Below, piece by piece: positions 27,142 through 37,611 of a stretch of 64,000 nucleotides of DNA. Each line of letters opens with the position of its first letter. Positions within the stretch are counted from its first letter, which is position 1. This stretch comes from Kutzneria chonburiensis (GTDB lineage Bacteria; Actinomycetota; Actinomycetes; Mycobacteriales; Pseudonocardiaceae): NCBI RefSeq assembly GCF_028622115.1, contig NZ_CP097263.1, forward strand, positions 2,666,001 through 2,730,000. Reading direction: 5' to 3'. Under the pieces are notes generated by a model. It saw only the letters and a program-made list of their open reading frames with translations. It had not been told where the DNA came from and searched no databases. The translations under genes were made by a program, and so were the position numbers.

Positions 27142-28881
27142 TCACATCCGGGCCGGTGCCTCGATCCCCAGAAGCGCCAAGGACTGCGTGAGCACGCGGG
27201 AGGTCAGCTGGGCCAACGCCAGGCGCGAACGGCGAACCTCGTCGGTGGGCGCCTTGAGGATCGGGCAGCTCTCGTAGAAGTTCGAGAACGTCGCGGCCGT
27301 CTCGTAGAGGTACGTGCAGAGCTTGTGCGGCGCGAACTCCGTGGTGGCCACGCTCAGGACGGCGGGGAACTGGAGCAGCTTGAGAGCGAGGGCACGTTCA
27401 GCGGCGACGGAGAGGTGAACGGGGGTGTCCGGGCCGACGGCCCAGCCGGCACGGGCGATGACGGAGAGCACCCGGGCGTTGGCGTACTGGAGGTAGACAG
27501 AAGTGTTGCCCTCCAAGGCAAGCATGCGATCCCAGTCGAAGGAATAGTCCTTCTCCCGATCGGCGCACAGGTCGGCGTACTTCACGGCGCCGATGCCGAC
27601 GGCCCGTGCGATCCGAGCCCGATCGGCCCCGGAGAGATCGGACCGTGCGGCGACGACGAGCGCGGCCCGGTCGATGGCCTCCCGCAACAGGTCCACGAGT
27701 TTCACGGTCACGCCGGCTCGGGTCCGCAGCGGCTTGCCGTCCTCGCCGAGGATCGAGCCGAAGCCGATGTGCGTGGCCCGGTGTTCGGCGTCCAGCCAGC
27801 CGGCGGACTCGCAGGCGCGGAACACCATCGCGAAGTGCTGCGCCTGCGGCGAGCCGACGACGTACAACAGCTCGGTGACGCCCCGATCCCGCGTCCAATA
27901 CCGGACGGTGGCCAGATCGGTGCTGGCGTAACCGTAACCGCCGTCGGTCTTGCGAACGATCAGCGGCAGCCGGTCGCCCTCCCGGTTGACGAAGCCGGGC
28001 GGGAACACGCAGACCGCGCCCTCGCTGATCTCGGTCAGCCCCTTGGCCTCCAGCTCGGCGACCGTGTCGGCCAGGTACGGGTTGTAGAAGCTCTCGCCGT
28101 AATAGTCCTGCGGGCCGAGTTTCACGCCGAGCAGCTCGTACACCTTGGCGAAGTGCCGTTCCGACTCGGCGACCAACTCCCGCCACAGCACCAGGGTCGC
28201 CTCGTCGCCGCCCTGCAGCGCGACGACCCGACTCCGCGCGCGATCGGCGAACTCCTGGTCGGCGTCGAACTTCTTGCGGGCAGCCTGGTAGAAGCCGTTG
28301 AGGTCGCTGATCGAATGCCCGTCGGTCGCGGCGTGTCCCTCGTCGACCAGGTGCTCGATCAGCATGCCGAACGGGGTGCCCCAGTCGCCGAGGTGGTTGT
28401 GCCGCACCACCTCGTGGCCGGCGAAGTCCAGCAGCCGCACAACCGCGTCGCCGATGATGGACGACCGCAGGTGTCCGACGTGCATCTCCTTGGCGACGTT
28501 CGGGCTGCCGTAGTCGATGGCGTAGCGGATCGGGATGTCCGCGGCCGGCGCGCCGAGCCGGTCGTCGCCGAGCAGCCGCGCCGTCTGCGCCGCCAGCCAG
28601 TCGTCGTTCAGCGTGATGTTGACGAATCCCGGACCGGCCGCCTCGGCGTACTCGATCATGTCGGTGTCGAGGGTGGCGACGATCGCGTCGACGATCTCGC
28701 GCGGCGGGCGGCCGAGCCGCTTGCCGAGGCTCATCGCGACGTTGCACTGGAAGTCCGCGTCACGTCCGGTTCCGGCCGGTCGGATCAGCGTCTCCGCGGG
28801 CGCGATGTCCACGTCCAGCGCCGCCTTGAGGGACTCGGCGACCCGCAGGCCGAGTTCCAGCCCGACATCTCCACCCAACAC
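27142..28881 (-). CDS. argS: Arginyl-tRNA synthetase
   Basis: 579 aa from GTG 28881, which has GGAGGT five bases upstream; the ATG at 28965 would add 28 non-conserved residues. Class I synthetase: HIGH motif as HVGHLRSS (residues 134-137), preceded by AIDYGSPNVAKEM, then GSPQAQHFAMVFRACE, the KMSKS-region variant GEDGKPLRTRAGVTV usual in ArgRS, and the anticodon-binding helices ending LLGIEAPARM. An N-terminal Add-1 domain is present. It is not beside lysA or hom, where the main actinobacterial argS usually lies, so this could be a second copy. Confidence 0.9.
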   Translation of the reverse strand: MLGGDVGLELGLRVAESLKAALDVDIAPAETLIRPAGTGRDADFQCNVAMSLGKRLGRPPREIVDAIVATLDTDMIEYAEAAGPGFVNITLNDDWLAAQTARLLGDDRLGAPAADIPIRYAIDYGSPNVAKEMHVGHLRSSIIGDAVVRLLDFAGHEVVRHNHLGDWGTPFGMLIEHLVDEGHAATDGHSISDLNGFYQAARKKFDADQEFADRARSRVVALQGGDEATLVLWRELVAESERHFAKVYELLGVKLGPQDYYGESFYNPYLADTVAELEAKGLTEISEGAVCVFPPGFVNREGDRLPLIVRKTDGGYGYASTDLATVRYWTRDRGVTELLYVVGSPQAQHFAMVFRACESAGWLDAEHRATHIGFGSILGEDGKPLRTRAGVTVKLVDLLREAIDRAALVVAARSDLSGADRARIARAVGIGAVKYADLCADREKDYSFDWDRMLALEGNTSVYLQYANARVLSVIARAGWAVGPDTPVHLSVAAERALALKLLQFPAVLSVATTEFAPHKLCTYLYETAATFSNFYESCPILKAPTDEVRRSRLALAQLTSRVLTQSLALLGIEAPARM

Positions 28882-29005
28882 CGGCCGACCTCCGCCTTCG
28901 TTCGTGTCCGCCCAGTATCCCGACGGTGCAAAACGATTACCCCGATGGCCTGCCCTTTCGGTCATTCGTCGCCGCGCTGCTCGAACGCCGTGCCAGGATG
29001 TTCAA

Positions 29006-29695
29006 ATGGGAACTACTGTGGTGGTCGGGGGCAGTCACGGCATCGGGCGGCTGATCGCGGAGCGGGCGGCGGGGCGCGGGGATGCGGTGGTGGTGACCAG
29101 CCGGGACAAGGGGCGGGCGCAGGGGGTCGCGGCGGAGATCGGGGGCGACTGCACGGGAATCGCGCTGGATCTGGCGGCGCCGGCGACGATCGAGGGGGCG
29201 CTGGCGGAGATCACGGTGGTGGACAGCCTGGTGATCACGGCGATCGAGCAGACGGTGCAGAGCATCGGCACGTTCGACGTGGCGGACGCGATCAACTCGG
29301 TGACGATCAAGCTGGTGGGCTACGCGGAGACGGTGCGGGTGCTGACGGATCGGTTCGGGCCGAAGGCGGCGGTGGTGCTGTTCGGGGGCCTGGCGAAAGA
29401 GCGGCCGTACCCGGGCTCGACGATGGTGACGACGATCAACGCGGGCGTCACGGGACTGATGCGCACGCTGGCCAGAGAGATCGCGCCGGTGCGGGTGAAC
29501 GCGCTGCACTCGGGCGTGGTGGGCGACAGTCCGAAGTGGAGCCACGTGAAGGACAGCCACCCGGCGGTGGCCCGCACACCGCTGGGCCGGCTGGTGACGA
29601 TGGAAGAGGTGGCCGACGCGACTGAGTTCCTGCTGCGCAACGGCGGCATGACCGGCCACGACCTCAACATCGACGGCGGCTGGCTACTGACCTGA
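29006..29695 (+). CDS. SDR family oxidoreductase
   Basis: 229 aa. Start TTVVVGGSHGIGRLIAERAA has the TGxxxGIG pattern with Gly instead of Thr. The end VTMEEVADATEFLLRNGGMT and GHDLNIDGGWLLT is typical of classical SDRs. The catalytic Tyr-Lys pair is not clear: the segment reads RPYPGSTMVTTINAGVTGLM, with no Lys four residues after Tyr. It may be a non-enzymatic or altered SDR. ATG 29006 is divergent from argS and convergent with the TetX-like gene (overlap of 12 bases). Confidence 0.8.
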   Translation: MGTTVVVGGSHGIGRLIAERAAGRGDAVVVTSRDKGRAQGVAAEIGGDCTGIALDLAAPATIEGALAEITVVDSLVITAIEQTVQSIGTFDVADAINSVTIKLVGYAETVRVLTDRFGPKAAVVLFGGLAKERPYPGSTMVTTINAGVTGLMRTLAREIAPVRVNALHSGVVGDSPKWSHVKDSHPAVARTPLGRLVTMEEVADATEFLLRNGGMTGHDLNIDGGWLLT

Positions 29696-30799
29696 CATCT
29701 CGGCCATGAGCTGGCCGATCCGCTCGGCGCTGCCGGGTTCGAAGAACGCGACGAGGTTGGACGCCGACTCGGCGGCGGCGGCCTCGGCGCGGGGGAACAT
29801 GGCGGCCTCGAAGGAGGTCAGCGCGGATTCGACGTCGTCGTGGGCGGCCAAGGCCAGGCCCAGCTCGGCGGCGTCGAGCATGGCCAGATTGGCGCCCTCG
29901 CCGGCGAACGGGGACATCAGGTGGGCGGCGTCGCCCAGCAGGGTGACGCCGGGAACGCGAGACCAGCAATGGCCGACGGGCAGGGCGTGGATGGGCCGCG
30001 GCACGAAGACGCCGTCGCCGTCGGCGATGAGGCCCCGCAGCGGCTGGGCGAAGTCGTCGAAGAGGTCGAGCAGCCGCGAGCGGGTCCGCGCCGGGTCGGA
30101 GTCGACAAGGGTCGACACCCAGTTGTCGTCCTCGGTCCGAATGGCGACGTAGACCCGAATCCGGCCGTCGCCGTTGCGCTGAGCGATCACACCCTTGCCG
30201 TCCCCGAGTCCCCACATCGAGCCGACGCCGACGAACGCGGCATGCCCGGGATGACAAGCGTCCACATCGGACAGATGAGTCTCCACGAAGGACAGTCCGG
30301 AGTAGACGGGACGAGCGTCGGACAGCAGCGGCCGGACCTTCGACCACGCGCCGTCCGCGCCGACGATCAGGTCGGCCGAGACGGTTTCGCCGTCCCCCAA
30401 GGTGATCGAAGACGGCTTCACGGCCGTGACCTTGGCGCCCCACCGAACGGTCCCGGCCGGCAGCGACTCGACGAGGATGCGCTTGAGTGCGCTGCGGTCG
30501 ATCTCGGGACGGCCGCCGGGCTCGTCCGGCGTCTGGTCGACGTAGACGATCCCGTTGGCGTCGACCACGCGCAGCGCCTCGCCCTCGTCGCGGGCCAGCG
30601 CGCGGAACTGGTCGAACAGGCCGGCCTCGCGCAGCGCCCGCTGCCCGGTGTCCTCATGCAGGTCAAGGGTGCCGCCCTGATCACGGGCGGTCGGCGAGTC
30701 GTCGAGTTCGTACACAATGGACTGAATGCCGTTGACATGCAGCACCCGGGCGAGCGTCAGCCCGCCAAGGCCACCGCCGACGATGACGATCTTCTTCAT
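29684..30799 (-). CDS. TetX-like FAD-dependent monooxygenase
   Basis: 371 aa. Start KKIVIVGGGLGGLTLARVL, then RDQGGTLDLHEDTGQRALRE and RPEIDRSALKRILVESLP, both very close to the GGTLDLH and RPEINR motifs of tetracycline monooxygenase TetX; DG motif IVGADGAWSKVRPLLS and GVTLLGDAAHLMSPFAGEGA follow. Class A flavoprotein hydroxylase, cytoplasmic, using NADPH and oxygen. Whether it takes tetracyclines is open, since many TetX relatives act on other aromatics. ATG 30799 follows AAGGAG. It is 13 bases after the TetR gene in an operon with the hydrolase. Confidence 0.84.
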   Translation of the reverse strand: MKKIVIVGGGLGGLTLARVLHVNGIQSIVYELDDSPTARDQGGTLDLHEDTGQRALREAGLFDQFRALARDEGEALRVVDANGIVYVDQTPDEPGGRPEIDRSALKRILVESLPAGTVRWGAKVTAVKPSSITLGDGETVSADLIVGADGAWSKVRPLLSDARPVYSGLSFVETHLSDVDACHPGHAAFVGVGSMWGLGDGKGVIAQRNGDGRIRVYVAIRTEDDNWVSTLVDSDPARTRSRLLDLFDDFAQPLRGLIADGDGVFVPRPIHALPVGHCWSRVPGVTLLGDAAHLMSPFAGEGANLAMLDAAELGLALAAHDDVESALTSFEAAMFPRAEAAAAESASNLVAFFEPGSAERIGQLMAEMSGQ

Positions 30800-30812
30800 G
30801 GTGGAACTCCTT

Positions 30813-31481
30813 TTACGGTATGGGAATTTCGAACGCGCCGGCCAGCAGGACGTCGAACATCCAACGAGCCCGGGTCCCCGGGGCACCGGAGATCAGCTCG
30901 GTGGTGTGCGCGGCGATGGTCGGGTACGTGTCGGCGGAGACTTCCTCGATGGTGCGCGCCAACAGGTCGTGGTCGGCGGCCGACGCCTCGGGATGCTCGG
31001 TGCGGGTGCCGTGTTCCACCGCACTGGCCGTCGCCACGAGCAGTAGCAGATCGATCGCCCAGCCGGCCTGCGGCGCCGCCATGCCACCGTCCAGCAGCAG
31101 CCTGAAGACGGCCTCGACCATGGCCAGGTAGTTCTGGCCGCTGAGCCGGCTGACCAGCGCGACCCGGGCCAGGCTCGGGTTGTCGTGCAGGACCTGGCGA
31201 TACGAGTCGAGCACCTGCCACAGCCGGGCCCGCCAGTCGCCGTCGGCCGGGTCGAGGTCGACCTCGCCGAGCAGCTCGTCGAGCATCGCGGCGTGCAGTT
31301 CCTGAGTGTCCGTCACGTACACGTAGAGCGAGGCCGGGCCGGTGTCGAGCTCCTTGGCCAGCCGCCGCATGGTCACCTTGTCCATGCCCTCGGCCCGCAT
31401 CACGGCCAGCGCCGTCGCCACGATGCCGGCACGGGTCAGGGCCGGCTTGGACGGGCGTTCCCGCCGATTGTAGTCCACCAT
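30813..31481 (-). CDS. TetR family regulator
   Basis: 222 aa. DNA-binding part: LTRAGIVATALAVMRAEGMD, then VTMRRLAKELDTGPASLYVY with the usual TetR recognition helix. The ligand domain is of the TetR_C type that pairs with RPSKPALTR at the start, common in regulators of drug-modifying or efflux genes. ATG 31481 is preferred because the operator repeats end just upstream of it at 31496. It lies between the hydrolase and the TetX-like gene and probably represses all three. Confidence 0.85.
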   Translation of the reverse strand: MVDYNRRERPSKPALTRAGIVATALAVMRAEGMDKVTMRRLAKELDTGPASLYVYVTDTQELHAAMLDELLGEVDLDPADGDWRARLWQVLDSYRQVLHDNPSLARVALVSRLSGQNYLAMVEAVFRLLLDGGMAAPQAGWAIDLLLLVATASAVEHGTRTEHPEASAADHDLLARTIEEVSADTYPTIAAHTTELISGAPGTRARWMFDVLLAGAFEIPIP

Positions 31482-31495
31482 GCCGGCGAGCTTAA

Positions 31496-31522
31496 CGGAC
31501 ACGTTCGTGACGAACACGTTCG
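31496..31522. promoter_or_regulatory. TetR operator, copy 2 (internal)
   Basis: CGGACACGTTCG (31496-31507) and CGAACACGTTCG (31511-31522) are near-perfect 12-base palindromes starting 15 bases apart. The hydrolase stop codon begins at the next base (31525-31523), so the site lies between that stop and the TetR ATG at 31481. The same paired layout recurs at 32178-32204. Confidence 0.72.
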
Positions 31523-32913: not shown

Positions 32914-33282
32914 GCCGTCGCGGCGCGGACCTTCGGGCCCGCGCCTTTTCTCGGCCCGTGTTCGGGCCGAAAGTCACCCGACAGTGGCGAGAATCCGGTG
33001 TAAGGCCAGGTGGTGGGCCCGCTCCCGCGGGCCGCAGGCACACCGGGCGTCTCACTGGGCCCAATGTCGAAGGTCGCCCGGCCGAGGGGTAACTCGCTCG
33101 TACGGGTGAGGGGCTCTGACGCGCGGTGATTGCCCATTCACACGAACTAGCTCTGTCCGCCACCGGTGAACACGACTTAGACTTGTGCCGAAATTTGCAG
33201 ATGTGCCCATGCAGAATTACCGGCCGTCCGTCTCGAACAGTCCGTCGACGCCATGTCGCACGGGCGAGGGAGGGGCTTTATC
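32914..33282 (+). other. Gene-free control region ahead of the cyclodipeptide synthase operon
   Basis: No convincing gene. From about 33130 the sequence becomes markedly richer in A and T than its surroundings, as expected for the promoter of the biosynthetic operon. I could not settle on a -35/-10 pair with proper spacing. The ribosome site GGGAGGGG at 33267-33275 decides the start at 33283. Confidence 0.5.
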
Positions 33283-33999
33283 GTGTTCACGTTGGAGTGG
33301 TTAGCAGGCACGACAGTCCATCACGACCATGTTCTCGTCGGACTGAGCCCACAGAACGGGCGATACAAGCCGGAATACATCAGGAACCTCATTTTCTGGC
33401 TACGCCCTCGATTCAGCTCCATCGACGTGGTCATTCCTGGATTCGAGGCGGCGTACACCCTGGTGGCCGCCGGCCACCCGCCGGCGCAGGCCGTGCACCG
33501 GGCCCGCCGAGCCTACCGCCAGCTCCACAACCCCGCCGTCCGTGCCCTGGCCGACCTGGGCGTTCCCGATCCGGCTCGACACGTGACCAGTTGGACCCGG
33601 CTGCACGCCAACGCGGCCTACCGGGCATCGCTGATCCGCTCCCGCCGGGCCTATCTGATCGACCGGCGCATTCGCGCCGCCTGCCGCGCGATGACGGCCG
33701 AGGTGGTCGGCAACGCGGCGAACAGCGGTTCGGTCACGTCCGGCGATATCGACATCGCGGTTCGGTACGTCATTGCCGAAATTCCGCTGCTCACCGACGG
33801 TCCACGCCTCTTCGAGGCCGATCGGAGCGTTTTCGTGTACCACCGTCCCACTCCACTGGTGGCGGCGATCGCGGACGGCGGTTCCATTCTCCGGGCGGCG
33901 CCCGGGCAGTCATGGGCGGTCGTCGGCCAGGAGGAGGAAAATCATGGCGAACACGATCGAACCGCACCTCCCGCTGCAATACCCGTTCCCGCTCGGTGA
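33283..33999 (+). CDS. tRNA-dependent cyclodipeptide synthase, NYH subfamily
   Basis: 238 aa, the usual CDPS length. It joins two aminoacyl groups taken from charged tRNAs into a 2,5-diketopiperazine. Active-site residues follow AlbC with a constant offset: Ser22 (Ser37, GLSPQNGRY), Asn25 (Asn40), Tyr162 (Tyr178) and Glu166 (Glu182) in VRYVIAEIPLL, Tyr186 and His187 (Tyr202/His203) in VFVYHRP. Asn, Tyr and His at these places define the NYH subfamily. GTG 33283 has GGGAGGGG eight bases upstream; the ATG at 33253 is less good. The P450 gene starts 56 bases before its end. Which amino acids are used cannot be read without pocket-residue comparison. Confidence 0.9.
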   Translation: MFTLEWLAGTTVHHDHVLVGLSPQNGRYKPEYIRNLIFWLRPRFSSIDVVIPGFEAAYTLVAAGHPPAQAVHRARRAYRQLHNPAVRALADLGVPDPARHVTSWTRLHANAAYRASLIRSRRAYLIDRRIRAACRAMTAEVVGNAANSGSVTSGDIDIAVRYVIAEIPLLTDGPRLFEADRSVFVYHRPTPLVAAIADGGSILRAAPGQSWAVVGQEEENHGEHDRTAPPAAIPVPAR

Positions 34000-35149
34000 C
34001 GACGGCGCGCTGCCACCGCTGACCGCATGGGCGCAACGGGCCAGACCGGTGTGCCCGGTGCGGCTGCCCAGCGGCATCACCGCGTGGATGCTGACCCGCA
34101 AGGACGACGTGGCCCGGATGCTGGCCGACAACCGGTTCAGCCGGGACCTGGCCGAGCCGGGTTCGCCGCGCATGGTCGGCGAGGACCTCACCTCGGTCGA
34201 CGACGCGATCTTCAACCTGGACCCGCCCCGGCACGGCCGCGTCCGACAGGTGCTCAGCAGCTGGTTCACCCGCGGTGCCGTGCAGCGCCACCGCCCGCTG
34301 ATCGCCCGGCATGCCCGGCGGCTGCTGGACGCCATGGCCGACGGCCCTAACCCGGTGGACCTGATCGAGGCATACACGGCCGCCCTGCCGCTGGACGCGA
34401 TGGGTGAGCTGATGGGCGTGCCGCCGGAGCTGGCCGACGAGTGCCGGCGGGTGTACCCGATGAGCCTGGACCTGTCGTCGACCCCGGACGCGGTGCGGGA
34501 GGAGACCGACGCCGCCAAGCGGTTCATCGCCAAGCTGGTGGCCGCGCGCCGGGCCGACCCGCTGCCCGACACGCCCGTGCACGCGCTGCTGGAGGCCAGC
34601 CGGCTGGGCGTGATCACCGAGGCGGAGATGTTCGGCACGGTGTTCCTGATCTTCGTCACCTCCTTCGACCCGCTGGTCGCGCCGCTGACCACCGGCCCGA
34701 TGATCCTCATGCTGCACCGCAAGCAACTCGACGAGTGCCTGGCCGACTCCTCGTTGTGGCCCAAGGCGGTCGAGGAGGTGCTGCGCTACTTCCACAACGG
34801 CGGCCTGGGTTTTCCGCGTATCGCCCGCGAGGACGTGGACTTCGGCGGCACGGTCATCCGCCGCGGCGACGCGGTGGTGGTGCCGATGCAGGCGGTCACC
34901 TGGGACCCCCGGCACTACCGCAACCCGCAGAAGTTCACCATCCACCGGGCCACCGACGGCTCGGCCACCTTCGGCGCCGGCCCGCACTACTGCCTCGGCT
35001 CGCAGCTGGCCCGGATCGTGTTGCAGGAGGCCATCTCCGCGCTGTTCCAGCGGTTCCCGACGCTGGATCTGGCGGTCAGCCGGCGCGAGCTGCCGTGGGA
35101 CCCCAACCGCATGTTCACCCGTCCCATGCAGCTACCCGTGACCTGGTGA
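33944..35149 (+). CDS. Cytochrome P450 tailoring the cyclodipeptide
   Basis: 401 aa, soluble bacterial type. Heme-binding motif FGAGPHYCLGSQLAR with Cys350 as thiolate ligand, the ExxR pair Glu278/Arg281 in VEEVLRYF, and NLDPPRHGRVRQVL before helix C. The I-helix is odd: where AGxxTT is normal it reads FVTSFDPLVAPL (about 237-248), so the usual acid-alcohol pair for oxygen activation is missing. ATG 33944 has GAGGAGGAA upstream and lies inside the 3' end of the synthase gene. Oxidation or coupling of the diketopiperazine is the likely role, as in other CDPS-P450 loci. Confidence 0.9.
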   Translation: MANTIEPHLPLQYPFPLGDDGALPPLTAWAQRARPVCPVRLPSGITAWMLTRKDDVARMLADNRFSRDLAEPGSPRMVGEDLTSVDDAIFNLDPPRHGRVRQVLSSWFTRGAVQRHRPLIARHARRLLDAMADGPNPVDLIEAYTAALPLDAMGELMGVPPELADECRRVYPMSLDLSSTPDAVREETDAAKRFIAKLVAARRADPLPDTPVHALLEASRLGVITEAEMFGTVFLIFVTSFDPLVAPLTTGPMILMLHRKQLDECLADSSLWPKAVEEVLRYFHNGGLGFPRIAREDVDFGGTVIRRGDAVVVPMQAVTWDPRHYRNPQKFTIHRATDGSATFGAGPHYCLGSQLARIVLQEAISALFQRFPTLDLAVSRRELPWDPNRMFTRPMQLPVTW

Positions 35150-35157
35150 GGAGCGCG

Positions 35158-35889
35158 ATGACCGCCAGCCAGTTCGAGGAGTTGGCCTACCTCTACGAGC
35201 AGAGCTTCGAGGTGTGGCCGTACCGGCGGGACGTGGAGCAGTACTCGGTGATCCAGGCGCTCGGCGACGTGACCGGCCTGGCGGCGCTGGACCTGGGCTG
35301 CGGTTCCGGCGGCTATACCCGCCTGCTGGCCGCACGGGGCGCGAAACCGGTGGTCGGCATGGACGGCGCCGCCGGCATGATCGACTACGCCTGGCGGCGC
35401 GAGGCGGAGGACCCCTGCGGCGCGAGCTTCGTGCGGCACGACGCGGCCGAGCCGATGGGCGGCGCGTTCGACGTGGTGCTGGCCGTGCACCTGCTGCCGT
35501 ACGCGGAGACCTTCGACGCCCTGGTCGCCATGTGCGCCTCGGCGAGGTCGGCGCTGGCCGGCCCGGGAAAGCGATTCGTGACGGTGACCATCAATCCCGG
35601 TTTCGCCCGCGACCCCGGTTACTACCGCCGGTACGGATTCGACTTGATAGCCCCTTCGGCTGAACTTCACGACGGTGATCCGATTCGACTGCACAGCGAG
35701 TTCCGCGGCGGCACGATCGACGTCACCCCGCACTACTGGTCCCGGACCACCCAGGAACGTGCCCTGCTCCAGGCCGGATTCCGGACGGTGACCTGGTGGG
35801 ATCCGGTCTGCTCCCCCACCGCCGATGTAGTCCACTTCAGCGATTATCTGCGCACACCGCCGACCCTCGTTGTCACGGCGACCGCATGA
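35158..35889 (+). CDS. SAM-dependent methyltransferase of the cyclodipeptide locus
   Basis: 243 aa, class I fold. Motif I ALDLGCGSGGYTRLLAARG, then VVGMDGAAGMIDYA (acidic residue for the ribose) and FDVVLAVHLLPYAETFDALV as the later motifs. It starts eight bases after the P450 stop with GGTGAGGAG as ribosome site, so it belongs to the same operon. It probably methylates N or O atoms of the oxidised diketopiperazine; the position is unknown. Confidence 0.85.
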   Translation: MTASQFEELAYLYEQSFEVWPYRRDVEQYSVIQALGDVTGLAALDLGCGSGGYTRLLAARGAKPVVGMDGAAGMIDYAWRREAEDPCGASFVRHDAAEPMGGAFDVVLAVHLLPYAETFDALVAMCASARSALAGPGKRFVTVTINPGFARDPGYYRRYGFDLIAPSAELHDGDPIRLHSEFRGGTIDVTPHYWSRTTQERALLQAGFRTVTWWDPVCSPTADVVHFSDYLRTPPTLVVTATA

Positions 35890-35953
35890 GGCTGTACTAC
35901 TATTCCCGCGGCGAAAAGGGGGCGTCCGCCGAAAGTGCGTTGAACGGGAGGTC

Positions 35954-36772
35954 ATGCTCGTGCACGAATCCGCGTGGATGCCGACGGGGCTCGATCCCGA
36001 GGTGCCCAGCGCCGCCCGGGTGTACGACTACTTCCTCGGCGGCTACCACAACCTGGCCGTCGACCGGGAGTTCGCGCACCGCGCCCAGGAGACGATGCCC
36101 GACCTGCCACAGATCCTGCGCACCTCGCGCCGCTTCCTGCGGCGGGCCGTGCACTACCTGCTGGAGCAGGGCGTCACCCAGTTCCTCGACCTCGGGTCGG
36201 GCATCCCCACCGCCGGCAACGTGCACGAGATCGCCCAGGAGGCCGCGCCGCACACCCGCGTCGTGTACGTGGACCGCGACTCCGTGGCCATGGCGCACTC
36301 GGCGCTGATGCTGGAGCACAACGACAACGCCGCCGCGCTGCGGGCCGACCTGCGCCATCCCCGGGACGTCCTGCGCAGCGACACCGTGCTGACCATGCTC
36401 GACCTGAACGAGCCGGTGGCCGTGCTGATGTCGGCGGTGCTGCACTTCGTCGAGGACGACACCGAGGCGCAGTCCATCGTCGCCGGCTACCGCAACGCGC
36501 TGGCCCCCGGCAGCTACATCGTGATCTCGCAGGGCACCCAGGACTCCGCCGGTGAGCAGGGCGAACAGGTGATCCGGCTGTACGACCAGACCGACAGCCC
36601 GTTCACCGCCCGCAGCCGCGACCGGTTCGAACGGCTGTTCAAGGGACTGGACCTGGTCGAGCCGGGCGTGGTGTACGTGCCGGAGTGGCGGCCGGAGTCG
36701 CCCGAGGACGTGGACGAGCATCCCGAGCGCAGCTGCGCGTACGGGGCCATCGGGCGCAAGCCGCTCTACTGA
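35954..36772 (+). CDS. SAM-dependent methyltransferase, DUF574 (Methyltransf_19) type
   Basis: 272 aa. Family marks: VPSAARVYDYFLGGYHNLAVDRE near the start (broken here into AARVYDYFLGGYHN), QFLDLGSGIPTAGNVHEIAQ as SAM site, RVVYVDRDSVAMAHS, and AVLMSAVLHFVEDDTEA. Actinomycetes carry many of these proteins; their substrates are unknown. ATG 35954 has GGGAGGTC upstream. The 64-base gap to the previous gene is short enough for co-transcription but contains an A/T-rich stretch (TACTACTATTCC), so it may have its own promoter. Membership of the diketopiperazine operon is uncertain. Confidence 0.8.
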   Translation: MLVHESAWMPTGLDPEVPSAARVYDYFLGGYHNLAVDREFAHRAQETMPDLPQILRTSRRFLRRAVHYLLEQGVTQFLDLGSGIPTAGNVHEIAQEAAPHTRVVYVDRDSVAMAHSALMLEHNDNAAALRADLRHPRDVLRSDTVLTMLDLNEPVAVLMSAVLHFVEDDTEAQSIVAGYRNALAPGSYIVISQGTQDSAGEQGEQVIRLYDQTDSPFTARSRDRFERLFKGLDLVEPGVVYVPEWRPESPEDVDEHPERSCAYGAIGRKPLY

Positions 36773-36792: not shown

Positions 36793-37611
36793 ATGGTGAC
36801 CCGCGAGAACCAACTGGGTGAGTTCCTGCGTGCCAGCCGGGCGCGGCTGGAGCCGGGCCAGGCCGGTCTGCCCGACGACCTCACCACGCGTCGGGTGGCC
36901 GGGCTGCGGCGCGAGGAGGTCGCGGTGCTGTCCGGGGTCAGCGCGGACTACTACACCCGGCTGGAGCAAGGGCGGGAACGCAATCCGTCGTCGCAGGTCG
37001 TCGGCGCGCTGGCCCGGGCGCTGCGGCTGGGCCCCGACGCCCGTGATCACCTGCTCCGGCTGGCCGGGCTGCATCCCGGGGTGCTGGAGGTGCCGCCGCT
37101 CCAGGTCGATCCGTCGCTGCTTCAGCTGCTGGACGCCTTCCCGCGGGCCGCCGCGTACGTGCTCGGACCGGCCTTCGATGTGTTGGCGGCCAACCGGATC
37201 GCCACCGCGCTGCTGTCGCCCTTCGGCAAGGAGCGCAACATGCCGCGGATCCTGTTCACGCATCCGGCCGCCCGTGTCGTGTTCGTCGAGTGGTCTCTGG
37301 TGGCCGGCGCCACCGTGCGCGCCCTTCGTCTGAACGCCGGGCTTTTCCCTTCTGATCCGGGGATTTCCGCCGTGGTCGCCGAGTTGACGGCCGCGTCGGC
37401 CGAGTTCCGTGCGCTGTGGGAGGACCAGACGGTCGGCGGGCTCATGCGGGCGTACAAGGTGTTCGTGCATCCGCGGGTGGGGCGAGTGGAGCTCACGTAC
37501 CAGACCTTCGACGTCAAGGACACGCCCGGGCAGCAGCTGCTCGTCGGCACCGCCGAGAGCCTGGCCAGCCAGGACGCCATCGACCAACTGGCCTCGTTGG
37601 CCACGGCGTAA
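36793..37611 (+). CDS. XRE family regulator with MmyB-like ligand domain
   Basis: 272 aa. Residues about 8-85 form the helix-turn-helix with the signature RRVAGLRREEVAVLSGVSAD and YYTRLEQGRERNPSSQVVGA. The rest is the MmyB-like ligand-binding domain (AFDVLAANRIATALL, FRALWEDQTVGGLM, VGRVELTYQTFDVKDTPGQQ), which binds fatty-acid-like ligands in the one known structure. TAGCAT at 36781-36786 ends six bases before the ATG, so the message is likely leaderless. It directly follows the DUF574-type gene; control of the diketopiperazine operon is possible but not shown. Confidence 0.86.
   Translation: MVTRENQLGEFLRASRARLEPGQAGLPDDLTTRRVAGLRREEVAVLSGVSADYYTRLEQGRERNPSSQVVGALARALRLGPDARDHLLRLAGLHPGVLEVPPLQVDPSLLQLLDAFPRAAAYVLGPAFDVLAANRIATALLSPFGKERNMPRILFTHPAARVVFVEWSLVAGATVRALRLNAGLFPSDPGISAVVAELTAASAEFRALWEDQTVGGLMRAYKVFVHPRVGRVELTYQTFDVKDTPGQQLLVGTAESLASQDAIDQLASLATA

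Follow-up and report, generated by a model that had tools for sequence, protein, structure and literature searches.

Gene organization of the locus

The window, a stretch of 64,000 nt (G000:C1:2666001-2730000) from the 10,411,187-bp genome of Kutzneria chonburiensis SMC256T, carried a cyclodipeptide synthase (CDPS) gene followed on the same strand by a cytochrome P450 gene and a methyltransferase (MT) gene. A CDPS cluster type was listed for this strain in the available part of PMC10232511. The CDPS gene (33283-33999, + strand) starts with GTG and encodes a 238-aa protein of the NYH type, with YvmC and AlbC as solved relatives; it scored 164 bits against PF16715 (cut-off 27) and 212.5 bits against TIGR04539 (cut-off 45). 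The P450 gene (33944-35149, +) encodes a CYP107-like protein of 401 aa (PF00067), and the third gene (35158-35889, +) a class I S-adenosylmethionine (SAM) MT of 243 aa (PF13649/PF08241) related to Amir_4628 and to the ToxA protein. A preliminary description of this DNA had reported a synthase with every catalytic residue in place, a 56-base overlap between the first two genes and an MT gene 8 bases past the P450 stop. All three were recovered: S37, N40, Y178, E182, Y202 and H203 (AlbC numbering) were present, and both distances followed from the coordinates above. The same SNYEYH set was displayed by the four Kutzneria orthologues described below.

The CDPS start at 33283 was supported because Kutzneria sp. 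CA-103260 displays ATG at that site, and because an upstream ATG (33253) is TTG in CA-103260 and in K. buriramensis. With the chosen P450 starts, the overlap was also 56 bases long in three other Kutzneria loci (L033, L034 and L035), to which this count was limited since the P450 start is uncertain in K. buriramensis (L036). The CDPS, P450 and MT frames, and that of a PF04672 gene next downstream, were open in five Kutzneria genomes. The ratio of nonsynonymous to synonymous substitution rates (dN/dS) relative to the window genes was 0.23-0.37 in 16 out of 16 gene-by-genome comparisons, a sign of selection. These four genes are therefore not chance open reading frames (ORFs).

An element upstream of the CDPS gene (33137-33202, +) consisted of two blocks, TTCACACGAACTAGnnCTGT (33137-33156) and TAGACTTrTGCCGAAwTTTGCAGAT (33178-33202), both near-invariant in the five Kutzneria genomes. 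Searched at up to three mismatches, the first block had a single occurrence in the 10.4-Mb genome (reversed-pattern control: 1 and 1). A sigma-70 scan of the region upstream of the CDPS gene found no consensus site, and no Rfam match reached gathering level there, two chance-level matches being located elsewhere in the stretch. Judging from sequence, the blocks are probably a promoter, an operator or a control region of the operon.

Conservation in Kutzneria

The CDPS was searched against 297 genomes of the family Pseudonocardiaceae. Orthologues with 74-84% identity were found in four of the six other Kutzneria genomes, among them Kutzneria sp. 744, Kutzneria sp. CA-103260 and K. buriramensis; five out of seven, K. 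chonburiensis included, have the gene set. In the remaining genomes of the family no match over most of the CDPS exceeded 37% identity, and two short partial matches reached 40 and 44%. Identities to the window across the four loci were 74-85% for the CDPS, 86-87% for the P450, 77-85% for the MT and 77-89% for the PF04672 protein. Genes for MsrA, a CoA ligase and an acyl-CoA dehydrogenase flank the set. They form a collinear chromosomal backbone in Kutzneria (MsrA being farther away in K. buriramensis) and were for this reason rejected as members of the locus.

Distribution outside Kutzneria

Relatives of the P450 were collected at E<=1e-70. Thirteen were found in 12 of 392 Streptomyces genomes; 12 of these 13 adjoin a CDPS gene and 11 an MT gene. 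Sampling of 394 genomes from 138 genera of the class yielded such relatives, besides the window's own, in two Streptomyces genomes only. A tree was built from 38 CDPS-linked P450s, two out of 40 having been omitted as too short. The window P450 and 21 others formed one clade, with 40-87% identity to the window P450, and 15 others, from cYY, cWW, gut-like and cWP-like loci among others (c followed by one-letter amino acid codes denoting the cyclodipeptide), displayed 20-27%.

The 22 clade loci showed the order CDPS-P450-MT in 11 cases and MT-CDPS-P450 in ten, and one was without MT. L090, which an over-long ORF made appear out of order, is included in these counts. The presence of a CDPS gene at all 22 is true by construction because loci lacking it (e.g. 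L094) were not entered; the unbiased figure is 12 out of 13. The set has been rearranged and yet kept together, which is good evidence for one pathway. The view of a tailored diketopiperazine (DKP) locus taken in the preliminary description is upheld by this recurrence of the three genes in Kutzneria and Streptomyces. The longer gene order given there held for CDPS-P450-MT, which recurs in other genomes; of its last two members, the PF04672 gene lay beside none of the Streptomyces operons and the MmyB-like gene was missing in Kutzneria sp. CA-103260.

Some of the Streptomyces copies reside on linear plasmids. A P450 match at E<=1e-50 was found on 15 plasmid records, and among the six examined CDPS, P450 and MT occurred together on those of S. 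tsukubensis AT3 (pST1), S. microflavus, S. anulatus and Streptomyces sp. NBC_00342. The CDPS on a S. subrutilus plasmid record was an unannotated ORF, and an IS3 element was inserted between CDPS and MT. The P450 of a Burkholderia glumae plasmid (33%) was discarded as unrelated; it lies among acyl-CoA dehydrogenase genes with no annotated CDPS alongside. Plasmid pST1 (L125), linear and 18.8 kb long, displayed the gene order of the window, with identities of 59% (P450), 46% (CDPS) and 43% (MT), and its set adjoins TniQ, TnsA-like and transposase genes and a DarT-family protein. It differs from the window by a 4-base instead of a 56-base overlap, by its second pocket (TEAGRMA) and by having no annotated PF04672 gene. 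We know of no product for related CDPS-P450-MT sets, pST1 included.

Damaged copies were also encountered. At L086 the CDPS gene is shortened and the MT gene broken across two frames; at L087 and L088 the CDPS frames could not be aligned through the pockets. The P450 of L180, which attaches to the window clade with a support of 0.84 and was not counted among its 22 members, is split over two ORFs and lacks the HNG motif described below. The shortened or frame-broken genes at these four loci suggest repeated loss of the pathway.

Viral contigs searched with the CDPS and with the P450 gave no relatives. A search of genome contigs with the CDPS alignment, based on one peptide pattern, returned five loci and says nothing on absence elsewhere. 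The comparison set held 52 stretches from the listed CDPS matches, seven high-scoring and the others lower-scoring; one of them, L182, held no CDPS.

The cyclodipeptide synthase and its predicted substrates

In a tree of 78 CDPSs, from which seven broken or truncated entries had been removed, the window CDPS and those of L056, L125 and L085 were sister to L070 with a support of 0.85. The latter corresponds to CDPS 77 of Streptomyces scabrisporus, which we take to be the present Embleya scabrispora, and this is the nearest characterised CDPS in the tree.

Pocket positions followed PMC5816076, and the comparison covered the 25 NYH rows of the accessible Table 2 of that study, about 66 other characterised CDPSs lying outside it. 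The rows carry no CDPS numbers and were assigned to CDPS 77, 84 and 103 by product, while L159 fits a cWY row (CDPS 69 or 71). Eight out of 25 further loci were skipped in the alignment of catalytic and pocket residues due to stops in frame, and nine more frames, not being CDPSs, were ignored. As a check of validity, the pockets of L070, L011, L159 and L163 equalled published rows letter for letter.

The window CDPS displayed LGVPWLLF in the first pocket (P1) and MEVNRTP in the second (P2). None of the 25 rows was identical, the best agreeing at nine out of 15 positions. L070 agrees at all 15 letters with the L / V,L,I row, which by product and organism is that of CDPS 77, and the products of this enzyme were given as cLV (56%), cLI (18%) and cLL (18%) in the available Table 1 (PMC5816076). 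P1 of CDPS 77 is identical to that of L056 and L125 at eight out of eight positions and to the window at six; its P2 differs (TGARRMD vs MEVNRTP), and no P450 or MT of the window families was found in the 12.6-kb L070 locus. The window P1 is also identical at six out of eight positions to L and P rows. The combination of Trp119 and Phe200 occurred in five of the available rows only, assigned to P, P, P, L and F/I and none of them to Trp or Tyr (PMC5816076). Tree place and pocket letters together make one aliphatic residue in the cyclodipeptide likely, the pockets by themselves being ambiguous.

The genome of K. chonburiensis contains a second CDPS (G000:C1:1601992-1602648) with pockets of the CGFPxLFF type, as found in the Kutzneria loci L038 and L039. 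For Kutzneria albida, a CDPS making cFL, cFM, cFY and cFF was described in the accessible part of PMC4210621.

The cytochrome P450

The heme loop (FGAGPHYCLG) and the ExxR motif (EVLR) were present in the window P450 and intact in 22 out of 22 clade members. The standard pattern of P450s for oxygen activation in the I helix is [AG]Gx[DE][TS]. It was displayed by none of the 22, which showed VTSFDP in Kutzneria and FTGSDA, VTGSEP, VTGGES, VTGVDP or VTSAEP elsewhere. The window segment TSFDP retains the acid and has Pro in place of Thr, a position occupied by Ala in three and by Ser in one of the 22. All 22 displayed HNG directly after ExxR. An altered oxygen-activation site is often met in P450s with unusual reactions; a group of the substrate can replace the Thr, so that hydroxylation is possible as well.

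The P450 model (predicted local distance difference test 79.9, predicted template modelling score 0.83) had SgvP, GfsF, OleP, PikC, HinD/TleB and FrazP2 among the best 50 of 1669 fold matches; these neighbours are presumably CYP107-like, and CYP121 was not among them. Compared with P450s at cYY, cWW and gut-like loci, the window P450 was 23-26% identical, had no I helix of the GAGxxS type and fell in a separate clade, these loci (rather than the published CYP121, GutD and NascB sequences) representing the coupling clades. Coupling as in known CDPS-P450 pairs, invoked in the preliminary description, is weakened by this placement. The mycocyclosin and guatyromycine systems (Rv2275/CYP121 and gym) resemble the window in a CDPS gene that precedes or overlaps the P450 gene. 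At cYY loci, however, the P450s are 23-25% identical to that of the window, with GAGVIS instead of VTSFDP in the I helix, and the pockets read VG[VI]TMLFN; CYP121-type coupling was rejected given the separate clade and the different I helix.

The formation of pulcherriminic acid (YvmC-CypX) likewise involves a CDPS and a P450 acting on an aliphatic cyclodipeptide, without an MT. A comparable route in the window would start from cLL or cLV, which the P450 would N-oxidise and aromatise as CypX does, and the MT would cap a hydroxamate or enol oxygen to yield a methoxy-pyrazine. The CDPS indeed stands beside a cLV/cLL synthase in the tree, CypX works on the cLL ring (PMC7954767, in part) and a functional parallel is offered by the DKP methylase Ndas_1145, which is reported to O-methylate a DKP carbonyl oxygen (PMC4519757, in part). 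Such a route nevertheless seems unlikely. The P450 scored 79 bits against TIGR04538 (CDPS-associated P450), far under the cut-off of 500 for CypX/CYP134 and below the 157 bits it obtained with the pentalenolactone synthase model (cut-off 700); YvmC, with pockets LGLAFFFL/MAAGRWK, lies in another part of the CDPS tree.

The methyltransferase

The structures closest to the MT were 8rdl, the ToxA protein, and 5jdy/5jdz/5je3; the family profile matched 8rdl with E 1.7e-50 and 5jdy with E 4.4e-48. We take 5jdy to be a ToxA structure as well, and ToxA and these structures to be N-methylases. The C3-methylase SgMT (9gdj) matched over the SAM-binding part only. In Actinosynnema mirum (G021), where N-methylated cWW is made by Amir_4627/Amir_4628, an MT of the same family was found directly behind the single CDPS match and was taken as Amir_4628; it shares 38-39% identity with the window MT, with whole-length homology and a profile match of E 3.9e-52. 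Amir_4628 is reported to place methyl groups on the two ring nitrogens of cWW and to accept other cyclodipeptides with large and/or aromatic residues (PMC4159871, in part). A further member of the family, next to a CDPS 103-like gene (L163), displayed 35% identity to the window MT and 46% to that of A. mirum.

At this last locus (G1034), an AlbA-like oxidase ORF, a CDPS whose pockets are those of the cFL row and the Amir_4628-family MT follow one another. It resembles the nitroreductase-methyltransferase cluster of Streptomyces sp. HPH0547, as far as the latter is described in the available part of PMC5767969.

The guanitrypmycin and purincyclamide clusters (gut and pcm) combine CDPS, P450 and MT genes as in the window (PMC7954767, in part), and one may imagine coupling to a nucleobase with the MT methylating guanine. 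We consider this highly improbable. The CDPSs of gut and pcm are of the Trp type, and their five-gene forms include a cyclodipeptide oxidase; neither this oxidase nor a GutE-like MT was found among the Pfam-identified window genes around the operon, and no such oxidase was annotated beside L125. The P450 of gut-like L159 belongs to another clade with a different I helix. A phmmer search with the window MT (E 0.1) did not report the MT of this locus, which aligned at 24%, and purine methylation of the GutE type was rejected on these grounds. L159 was called gut-like from its cWY pockets and from ORFs judged by eye, and at both L159 and L163 the ORFs taken for a cyclodipeptide oxidase were likewise assigned by visual inspection only.

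Predicted pathway

With moderate confidence, the three genes are regarded as one operon whose product would be an oxidised, N-methylated DKP with at least one aliphatic residue. We infer the substrates, the order of the P450 and MT steps and the positions of oxidation and methylation as follows. From two aminoacyl-tRNAs the CDPS would form a cyclodipeptide in which one residue or both are aliphatic, Leu being the most likely and Val, Ile or Pro the alternatives. The CYP107-like P450 would then oxidise the ring or a side chain, and the MT would place a methyl group either on a ring amide nitrogen of the DKP or on an oxygen that the P450 had introduced.

Several observations weigh against these assignments. 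The closest row over the 15 pocket positions is F/I (cFI), and identity to CDPS 77 amounts to only 42-47%. P1 matches one Trp row (LGVPLLLA) at six out of eight positions, as many as it shares with L and P rows. Five of the seven P2 letters are shared with AlbC (MAVNITP) and equally with the cWW synthase of A. mirum (MEVLRLP). Other amino acids may be used by those Streptomyces subgroups whose pockets read VGVPMLLF and VGLPWYLF, and the substrates reported for Amir_4628 are large or aromatic (PMC4159871, in part).

Some of these points, together with the relatedness of the MT to Amir_4628, would fit an A. mirum-like pathway to which a P450 has been added and in which a Trp-containing DKP such as cyclo(Leu-Trp) or cyclo(Pro-Trp) is oxidised and N-methylated. 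We hold this to be improbable, since the window CDPS stands apart from the A. mirum enzyme in the tree (30% identity, P1 VGVPMFFN in the latter), its P2 is equally near AlbC, and Trp119 with Phe200 occurred in no Trp row of the accessible Table 2 (PMC5816076). There was also no P450 match near the A. mirum genes.

For the oxidised, N-methylated DKP with an aliphatic residue, a more far-reaching version is offered tentatively, as a view rather less probable than not. The P450s may form a separately recruited CDPS-linked line, in which the acid is kept, the oxygen-activating Thr is lost and an invariant HNG stands in the substrate region, and which would catalyse a ring oxidation, cyclisation or coupling new to CDPS pathways on a largely aliphatic DKP. 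The MT would lock the product by N-methylation, and the resulting new class of DKPs would have spread on Streptomyces plasmids and become fixed in part of Kutzneria.

The preliminary description could not match the locus to a named pathway, and this agrees with our survey, in which the open-licence literature, as far as its text was available, held neither a characterised locus with a P450 of this clade nor a CDPS-P450-MT pathway on an aliphatic DKP; subscription tables (e.g. that of 829 P450-associated CDPS clusters) may hold the clade. According to the accessible part of a review of CDPS-linked P450s (PMC7954767), only BcmD and CypX act on aliphatic DKPs, the others acting on Trp- or Tyr-containing ones. 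The operon looks functional and is a good target for genome mining, as a variant of the CDPS-P450-MT kind and not a new kind of system. If the prediction is true, a rearrangeable cassette of three genes, with a distinct P450 clade, probably an aliphatic cyclodipeptide and a ring N-methylase, would constitute a compact enzyme set for robust DKPs.

The PF04672 and MmyB-like genes

Two genes behind the operon had been included in the exact set by the preliminary description. The first (35954-36772, +) encodes a putative accessory S-adenosyl methyltransferase of PF04672 (DUF574, Methyltransf_19; 303 bits). The second (36793-37611, +) encodes an MmyB-like XRE regulator (PF17765, 150 bits; HTH_31), is a doubtful member and falls beyond position 36772, at which that description had ended the locus.

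Both could belong to a four-gene pathway of Kutzneria, in which the PF04672 protein would be a further tailoring methyltransferase, with regulation by the MmyB-like protein. This extension is compatible with the other readings, and we regard it as doubtful, although not far-fetched. The PF04672 gene was found behind the MT gene at all five Kutzneria loci having the operon, with dN/dS of 0.24-0.37; synteny alone can keep it in place because the surrounding genes are conserved chromosomal backbone. The genome of K. chonburiensis contains 18 PF04672 copies, and among 93 fetched loci the family was matched at the four Kutzneria loci and L070 only, never beside the Streptomyces operons, which speaks against its inclusion in the exact set. 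The L070 gene (L070:4963-6726), which immediately precedes the CDPS 77-like gene of Embleya scabrispora, recalls the Kutzneria arrangement and is a point in favour.

The place of the MmyB-like gene in the set is weakened by its absence between the PF04672 and CoA-ligase genes of Kutzneria sp. CA-103260, and in K. buriramensis it was matched only from residue 91 on. An MmyB-like gene (39%) about 1.9 kb past the MT gene in Streptomyces L056 argues, on the other hand, against leaving the regulator outside. Three CDPS loci of other kinds (L136, L146 and L149) likewise contained MmyB-like genes.

Other genes of the window

A gene for a 607-aa arginyl-tRNA synthetase (27142-28965, -) represents a second, strongly diverged enzyme of this kind, 28-34% identical to pieces at G000:C1:6149920-6151527. 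It was rejected as part of the locus, since the 20-kb stretches from the four other Kutzneria contained no match to it. The gene at 29684-30886 (-), which adjoins a TetR-family gene (30813-31517), encodes a flavin adenine dinucleotide (FAD) monooxygenase that is distantly similar to Tet(X) (162 bits vs a cut-off of 750) and is most likely an ordinary FAD monooxygenase.

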